Shown here: positions 45,559-46,951 of the stretch, in pieces | How the letters are laid out: the number at the start of each line of letters is the position of its first letter | How positions within the stretch are numbered: position 1 is the first letter of the stretch | DNA from: Candidatus Buchananbacteria bacterium | GTDB taxonomy: Bacteria; Patescibacteriota; Patescibacteriia; CAIXNZ01 | Reading direction: 5' to 3' | Assembly: GCA_014729025.1 (NCBI GenBank) | Contig: WJKP01000018.1 | Coordinates: 1 to 47,154, forward strand | DNA length: 47,154 nucleotides | Position numbers and translations under genes: made by a program | The notes under the pieces: generated by a model | What the model was told of the DNA's origin: nothing | Databases searched by the model: none | The model's input: the letters and a program-made list of their open reading frames with translations, nothing else

Positions 45559-46134
45559 ATGAAGAAAATGATTTTGGCGGTAATGGCGGTTGTTATGATC
45601 ATGGCAACTTCGGCTAAGGCAGAGACTCGTCCAGCGCGGCTGAGACTGCTGGTTCACGGGCATATCAATGTCCAAGAAGGAATTGATCTTCGAGCTCACT
45701 TTATCCCGGCAGGCAATCTGGTTAACGACATTGCCCCTCTGGGCTATTTGGGGCTCGGTTATCAGGTCAATGATTGGCTTAATCTCGAGCCGGCGATTGG
45801 CTACGATTACACGGCTAATGAAATGATTTATTCATTGCGGCTTGAAGCTGGACAGGATAAATTCTACACTTGGGCTGATTACGAATACACAGCCGGCGTA
45901 GATGCCAGTTACTGGTTTGTTCAAGCGCAGTACAAGGTAAAACCCTGGCTGCATGTCGGTTTTGAAGAGGAGTCTTGGGGGCGTTTTGCCCGGTCAGAAG
46001 ATTTTAGTCACGGTGGTGGCCCCAATATTCTTTTTCGCAGCAATCACTGGGGTGTTGATCTAGCTTGGCATTACCGAAATTTTGAGGATCAGCCGGGCAC
46101 AGAGTTTTTCACCAGAGTTCATTTATTTTTCTAA
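45559..46134 (+). CDS. Secreted beta-barrel-like protein (outer-membrane-protein style)
   Basis: 191 residues. A signal peptide (MKKMILAVMAVVMIMATSAKA-E) is followed by alternating-residue strands such as YLGLGYQVNDWLNLEPAIGY, YTAGVDASYWFVQAQYKVKPWLHVGFEE and WGVDLAWHYR. The C-terminus is FFTRVHLFF: a terminal Phe preceded by alternating hydrophobics, as in Gram-negative outer-membrane beta-barrels. Codons are markedly GC-rich compared with the rest of the window. CPR cells are thought to lack an outer membrane, so the fold or the origin is puzzling. Strong SD (AAAGGAGA) 7 bases upstream. Confidence 0.6.
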   Translation: MKKMILAVMAVVMIMATSAKAETRPARLRLLVHGHINVQEGIDLRAHFIPAGNLVNDIAPLGYLGLGYQVNDWLNLEPAIGYDYTANEMIYSLRLEAGQDKFYTWADYEYTAGVDASYWFVQAQYKVKPWLHVGFEEESWGRFARSEDFSHGGGPNILFRSNHWGVDLAWHYRNFEDQPGTEFFTRVHLFF

Positions 46135-46256: not shown

Positions 46257-46751
46257 ATGAAAAAGTGGTTAATTGTGGAAGCGGTTATGGTCGTGGCGAT
46301 TATTTTTCTGGTTCACTTGATTAAAATTCAGTTAATAGCCGAAGCCCATGTCCAGGATAATAGTTTTGAACTTTTAGTTCAAACAGAAAACGGCTTGGTT
46401 CCCTATTCTCAGATTAAAATAGTGAAAATTAAGAAGCCACGGCCTGTAAGTAAAATTCAAAATAATAACCAGGTTATTTATGCTCATCGCCAGTCTATTC
46501 AATTTCGTATTTACGAGATTGAGCCAGAGCTTGGCAAGACATTGATTCAGCTGGCGCACTGTGAAAGCAGCTTGAACCCCGAGGCCGTCGGAGATAATGG
46601 CAATAGTTATGGCTTGTATCAAATTTATTTGAAGTGGCATCCTGATGTTAATAAAAAACAAGCTCAGGACATTGAATTTGCTACCAAATGGACAGCCAAT
46701 AAAATCCGGCAAGGCAAAGGTGATCTTTGGACTTGCTGGAACAAGATTTAA
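46257..46751 (+). CDS. Membrane-anchored lysozyme-like (lytic transglycosylase-type) protein
   Basis: 164 residues. One N-terminal membrane helix (about 4-24), a stalk, then a compact lysozyme-like domain from about residue 88. It has LIQLAHCESSLNPEAVGDNGNSYGLYQIYLKWHP, with catalytic Glu-103 in the CESSLNP context and GLYQI as in SLT domains; it ends GDLWTCWNKI. Two Cys (102, 160) could form a disulfide. It is smaller than typical lytic transglycosylases. It likely cuts peptidoglycan for wall remodelling or insertion of surface structures. SD AAAGGAGG. Confidence 0.8.
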   Translation: MKKWLIVEAVMVVAIIFLVHLIKIQLIAEAHVQDNSFELLVQTENGLVPYSQIKIVKIKKPRPVSKIQNNNQVIYAHRQSIQFRIYEIEPELGKTLIQLAHCESSLNPEAVGDNGNSYGLYQIYLKWHPDVNKKQAQDIEFATKWTANKIRQGKGDLWTCWNKI

Positions 46752-46757
46752 AACAAT

Positions 46758-46785
46758 AACCTCGGTTAACATATCCGGGGTTTTA
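46758..46785 (+). terminator. Terminator after the lysozyme-like gene
   Basis: AACCTCGG (46758-46765) / CCGGGGTT (46775-46782), one G-U, then TTT. Confidence 0.7.
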
Positions 46786-46951
46786 TAATTAAAAAACCGG
46801 CGCTATCATGATTTTTCATGTACTCGCGCCGGTGTTTGCCCTTATCACGCTTGGACTGGGCTTTGTCCTTTTTAGACAAGATGATTTGGCGGCTTTTGCG
46901 CCCCAATTTGTCGCTTTGCTGTCGCGGTAGCCATTTTTTCTTTTGAGCCAT
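46766..46951 (-). CDS. Small basic protein encoded with a terminator before its stop codon (ArfA/BrfA-like arrangement)
   Basis: 61 residues from ATG at 46951, chosen for the SD AAAAAGGAGGG 5-6 bases upstream; the frame is open to 46990 without an SD. MAQKKKWLPRQQSDKLGRKS, then many Lys/Arg, KRDKGKHRREYMKNHDSAGF, and a hydrophobic end (LIIKPRIC). A hairpin (46833-46796 on this strand, 8-bp GC-rich arms ACCGGCGC/GCGCCGGT) plus six T lies inside codons 40-54. Most transcripts should therefore end before the stop codon and yield a truncated protein of about 53 residues. The basic KGKH segment is reminiscent of ArfA, a ribosome-rescue factor made this way. Homology is not shown. Confidence 0.6.
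   Translation of the reverse strand: MAQKKKWLPRQQSDKLGRKSRQIILSKKDKAQSKRDKGKHRREYMKNHDSAGFLIIKPRIC
46791..46833 (-). terminator. Intrinsic terminator inside the small basic protein ORF
   Basis: Minus strand: ACCGGCGC (46833-46826), loop containing CATGA/TCATG, GCGCCGGT (46803-46796), then TTTTT (46795-46791). The stop codon is 25 bases beyond. Confidence 0.8.

Follow-up and report, generated by a model that had tools for sequence, protein, structure and literature searches.

In the studies cited here, release-factor-dependent backup rescue of ribosomes is described only for some Proteobacteria and for Bacillus, and the factors of the different groups are unrelated to one another (PMC6881298, PMC8012679, PMC6299226). 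In Escherichia coli, a stem-loop ahead of the stop codon of arfA gives rise to a non-stop mRNA, and the tail of the full-length ArfA protein is both hydrophobic and unstable (PMC8012679). The brfA gene comprises 71 codons with an internal terminator, and its non-stop product of ~62 residues has a basic tail that includes a Lys-His motif (PMC6881298). The non-stop messages of both genes are held down by trans-translation (PMC6881298, PMC8012679), as the initial annotation of the DNA analyzed here had stated; the same control was attributed there to Francisella arfT, wrongly, since neither a terminator nor an RNase III site precedes the stop codon of that gene (PMC6299226). ArfA, BrfA and ArfT are all narrowly distributed, and the authors of the BrfA study expected more such factors to be found (PMC6881298). 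The papers found that combine ribosome rescue with CPR or Patescibacteria are, by their titles and abstracts, only incidental to the subject.

The gene and its predicted overlapping terminator

The window (the whole stretch of 47,154 nucleotides that was analyzed, contig WJKP01000018.1 of Candidatus Buchananbacteria) belongs to the genome designated G000, and the other genomes compared are designated G001 to G009. Its minus strand carries the complete unit that had been annotated initially: a promoter, TTGACA-17-TAAACT, with a 17-nt spacer and an extended -10 TG (47009-46981), a strong Shine-Dalgarno sequence, AAGGAGGG (46964-46957), and an ORF of 61 codons (46951-46766) that begins with ATG (46951-46949) and ends with TAA (46768-46766). 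The Lys/Arg-rich translation, MAQKKKWLPRQQSDKLGRKSRQIILSKKDKAQSKRDKGKHRREYMKNHDSAGFLIIKPRIC, represents a small and very basic protein with a basic C-terminal tail (KK.K...KGKHRR).

Folding places a terminator hairpin (ACCGGCGC ... GCGCCGGT; 46833-46796, minus strand) in codons 40-52 of this ORF, with an energy of -21 kcal/mol (z -4.3) that was equalled in none of 200 shuffles. It is followed by a run of six T residues (46796-46791, minus strand), the first of which pairs with the stem, and the transcript would be expected to end in this run. The stop codon begins 28 nt past the first T, beyond the expected transcript end, and the annotated position of hairpin and T-run, inside codons 40-54 and ahead of the stop, was thus correct. 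The predicted non-stop product has ~53 residues, a size that fits that of the brfA product (PMC6881298). Translation beyond the hairpin would add the tail LIIKPRIC, which is rather hydrophobic at its start; the same is true of the read-through tails in G004, G005 and G007, partly because T-runs encode Phe and Leu.

The overlap is more than chance would suggest. A crude scan of a 339-kb sample of the genome, the window included, returned 156 terminator-like hairpins with energies of -12 kcal/mol or stronger; of those that precede, in the reading frame, the stop of an ORF whose start follows an SD, the hairpin described here was the strongest. No Rfam family was found for it. The stop codon of the small ORF is itself contained in a second terminator-like hairpin, recognized by eye on the plus strand (46757-46784) and attributed to the convergent SLT/lysozyme-like gene.

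That convergent gene (46257-46751, plus strand) encodes a probable exported lysozyme/SLT-like protein, with weak Pfam matches to SLT_3 and SLT below the cut-off, and several relatives have ORFs of similar size in the interval from recA to the small gene. Also on the plus strand of the window, a protein of 191 residues (45559-46134) has a weak Pfam match to an outer-membrane beta-barrel (E 1.6e-4, below the cut-off); a barrel of this type would be unexpected among CPR bacteria.

Family, distribution and conserved anatomy

Homologues that are 61-69% identical to the window protein occur in G003 and G005, which belong to the same CPR family of genomes, and four further, diverged small basic ORFs occupy the same place in other genera (G001, G002, G004 and G007). 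The family is therefore present in seven of nine genomes, convergent with recA in each; no such gene was detected at the recA-convergent place in G006 and G008, and G009 was left out of the count because its recA contig ends too near the place of the gene. Pairwise scores exceeded those of shuffled sequences for G000-G004 and G000-G007 (p 0.002 each), G001-G004 (p 0.001) and G002-G004 (p 0.001; 42% identity by BLASTP), and were not significant for several other pairs within the seven, so that the evidence for this putative family is a chain of similarities combined with synteny. The N-terminal half of the protein differs strongly between genera. Among G000, G003 and G005, dN is ~0.2 and dS is 2.7 or saturated (saturated in most pairs), which indicates that the protein is under purifying selection.

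Beyond these genomes, database searches with the window protein (Pfam included) returned no family match, and profile searches of 380 genomes of the class and 379 of the phylum revealed no credible member outside the family. None of the best matches from outside showed a small, SD-led ORF that carries a terminator, and they are probably chance similarities. No relatives were found among the viral contigs searched, and the surroundings of efp at 30 loci, from this and other families of the class, contained no further small basic ORF of this kind, under a non-exhaustive filter by which the genes at the efp loci of G002 and G007 also went undetected. In several genomes the small gene has efp and the rpsF-ssb-rpsR block as neighbours. 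Its narrow and fast-evolving distribution would resemble that of ArfA, BrfA and ArfT. In G002, two efp genes occur in a single MAG (contigs C67 and C72), through either duplication or contamination.

All seven genes are preceded by a purine-rich SD sequence, and six of them (G000, G001, G002, G003, G004 and G007) have a near-identical dedicated promoter with a 17-nt spacer and GC before the -10 element. The exception, in G005, lies directly behind efp, in the efp operon. Syntenic homologues, purifying selection and a conserved promoter and SD make it highly improbable that the ORF is a decaying or spurious frame over a terminator, despite the lack of a database family for the window protein and the confinement of the gene to one family of genomes. 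Slightly less improbable, and still very unlikely, is an attenuator leader peptide, the translation of which would decide whether the hairpin stops downstream transcription. A short ORF with a strong SD that overlaps a terminator has the appearance of such a leader; this reading is disfavoured because no gene on the same strand follows, either in the window or at the homologous loci, where the next genes (the SLT-like gene and recA) are convergent. Gene order thus largely refutes it, and the ORF codes for a protein whose sequence is conserved across ~50 codons.

A hairpin with a T-run covers the last codons of all seven genes (-13 to -27 kcal/mol). The position of the stop codon relative to this structure varies. 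Past the first T, it lies at a distance of 21 nt in G007, 42 nt in G004 and 59 nt in G005; the G003 gene is borderline, its stop being 5 nt past the first T and starting on the last T of T6. In G001 and G002 the stop falls within the hairpin and precedes the T-run by 8-9 nt, and for this reason their mRNAs would keep the stop and translation would terminate normally. A stop codon before the start of the hairpin, named initially as evidence against the annotation, was observed in none of the seven. The conservation in related CPR genomes that had been suggested as a check holds for the hairpin and only in part for its order relative to the stop codon.

Covariation in the stem was analyzed in an alignment of the seven homologues, in which the arms were cut by hand using the codon register and the loop was replaced by a fixed spacer. 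Three of the eight pairs change on both sides, and the covariation score was reached in none of 500 shuffles; pairing was found in 91% of the stem cells, versus 81% in shuffles and at most 48% in slid controls. This is support rather than proof, seven related sequences being few. Taken together, the sequences indicate a non-stop layout that is real and sufficiently conserved to look selected, and that is not universal. G004 and G007 also share DNA beyond the T-run that resembles an inverted or dispersed repeat (AACCAC...TTCACTgAtAACAC).

Similarity to ArfA and the rescue machinery of the genome

The G002 homologue, MKVKIDKAKEARRASRELFGHLGHKVEQPKKGKGVKFNRKQKHRKKEDD, matches the Pfam ArfA model (PF03889) over residues 24-43 (E 2.5e-4; 20.9 bits, below the curated cut-off of 25.5), in a region that covers its KKGKG...RK.KH stretch. 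The HMM comparison proposed at the outset thereby linked one member to ArfA, below threshold, with no match to PF03889 for the other members. Compared directly with E. coli ArfA, the G002 protein gave a shuffle p of 0.006, the best of seven comparisons, and the window protein a non-significant 0.31. The tail motif KGKG(S)..RK.KH is present in G002 (KKGKGVKFNRKQKH), and KKDKAQSKRDKGKH of the window protein can be aligned in the same register, not significantly by shuffling. In sequence searches of the PDB, the members tried matched no solved ArfA or BrfA chain; queries with G001, G004, G000 or the family profile, at E up to 10, returned no BrfA chain (PMC8874680 gives 6SZS as the structure of BrfA). 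An AlphaFold model from the single window sequence consists of one long helix (pTM 0.44), which is uninformative for a protein of such composition. Homology of the family to ArfA is suggestive, a lead and not a result, and convergence on a basic tail for the mRNA channel is equally possible.

Elsewhere in the window genome, the tmRNA gene adjoins that of SmpB, and RNase III is present. Two long RF-1-domain proteins are taken to be RF1 and RF2, and the presence of two long class-I release factors is consistent, and no more than consistent, with release-factor recruitment by the window protein. An ArfB gene, above the NCBIfam equivalog cut-off and encoding a GGQ motif and a basic tail, was also identified (L107 972-1451, minus strand, contig C47), and a short third RF-1-domain protein occurs in the other genomes of the family. 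Because of these proteins, a further backup would not be strictly needed, and the small gene would not be the sole one.

Proposed function and comparison with known factors

The terminator before the stop codon that is typical of ArfA and BrfA is clear in G000, G004, G005 and G007, borderline in G003 and not seen in G001 and G002, and a tmRNA-SmpB system is encoded in the same genome, as in that type. Our preferred reading, to which we assign a probability of roughly 0.6, is that the gene encodes a non-stop-encoded, tmRNA-controlled and release-factor-dependent backup rescue factor of the ArfA/BrfA working type, with a small family of its own. The layout, the conservation of the hairpin, the presence of tmRNA and SmpB and the ArfA-like stretch in G002 all support the rescue factor that the initial annotation had proposed; the layout that is not universal (G001, G002) and the non-significant similarity between the window protein and ArfA weigh against it. 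Stem covariation, purifying selection, the shared dedicated promoter, the match in size to brfA, the narrow distribution and the lack of a downstream gene on this strand speak for it as well, as does the presence of RNase III and two long release factors; the missing gene in G006 and G008 at the expected place, the ArfB gene and the sub-threshold Pfam score of G002 count on the other side.

According to this proposal, transcription from the dedicated promoter would end within the coding region, at the hairpin, leaving an mRNA without a stop codon, on which the ribosome would stall after ~53 codons. As long as trans-translation works, tmRNA-SmpB would tag the product for proteolysis; once this system can no longer keep up, the basic peptide would be released without a tag and accumulate. 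Its basic C-terminal tail would then reach into the vacant mRNA channel of a stalled ribosome, allowing a release factor, the putative partner in rescue, to free the stalled peptide.

The main alternative, which we consider unlikely, is a small basic protein that associates with the ribosome or binds nucleic acid (an accessory ribosomal or hibernation-like protein), and whose gene has a terminator that overlaps the 3' end to save space. Loss of the stop would have been tolerated in some lineages, and tmRNA would remove part of the product without regulatory meaning. The stop codon retained inside the hairpin in G001 and G002, the location beside efp and the rpsF-ssb-rpsR block and a composition that is simply Lys/Arg-rich would all agree with such a protein. 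Its weakness is that three or four diverged genera have retained the non-stop layout, in a protein under purifying selection; further weaknesses are the ArfA-like stretch of G002 and the strongly variable N-terminal half together with the absence of the gene from this place in two genomes, which are unlike a structural ribosomal protein.

A more far-reaching interpretation, offered tentatively and with somewhat less than even confidence, is that these proteins are a distinct family of rescue factors, dependent on release factors and born within CPR, in which non-stop expression under tmRNA control evolved without any link to ArfA or BrfA. Its living relatives would then display the steps from a normal to a non-stop gene, with the stop inside the hairpin, on the last T, and far beyond. 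A rescue factor of this kind in CPR would add a third bacterial branch, one with reduced genomes, to those with release-factor-dependent backup rescue. It would also suggest that non-stop control keeps arising, and would provide related genes in which the stop takes different positions relative to the same hairpin.

Among the known systems, ArfB resembles the window protein in its basic tail and, presumably, in backup rescue, and differs in having its own GGQ catalytic domain, whereas the window protein has neither an RF-1 match nor a GGQ motif. With ArfT, a short basic release-factor-dependent factor, it shares its shortness and a basic C-terminal stretch, and possibly release-factor dependence; unlike arfT, the window gene has a terminator before its stop. 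E. coli ArfA belongs to a different phylum and has different gene neighbours, yet the stem-loop before the stop and the hydrophobic residues after the hairpin are common to both, and its KKGKG...RKGKH tail has a counterpart in the G002 homologue, where the match to PF03889 stays below the cut-off. Bacillus subtilis BrfA (YqkK), compared here by PDB search and by its description, is limited to Bacillus, and the equivalent rescue activity of the window protein is a proposal; the window gene nevertheless shares with it a short frame of similar size, a basic product whose tail has a Lys-His motif, and a terminator located within the coding region.
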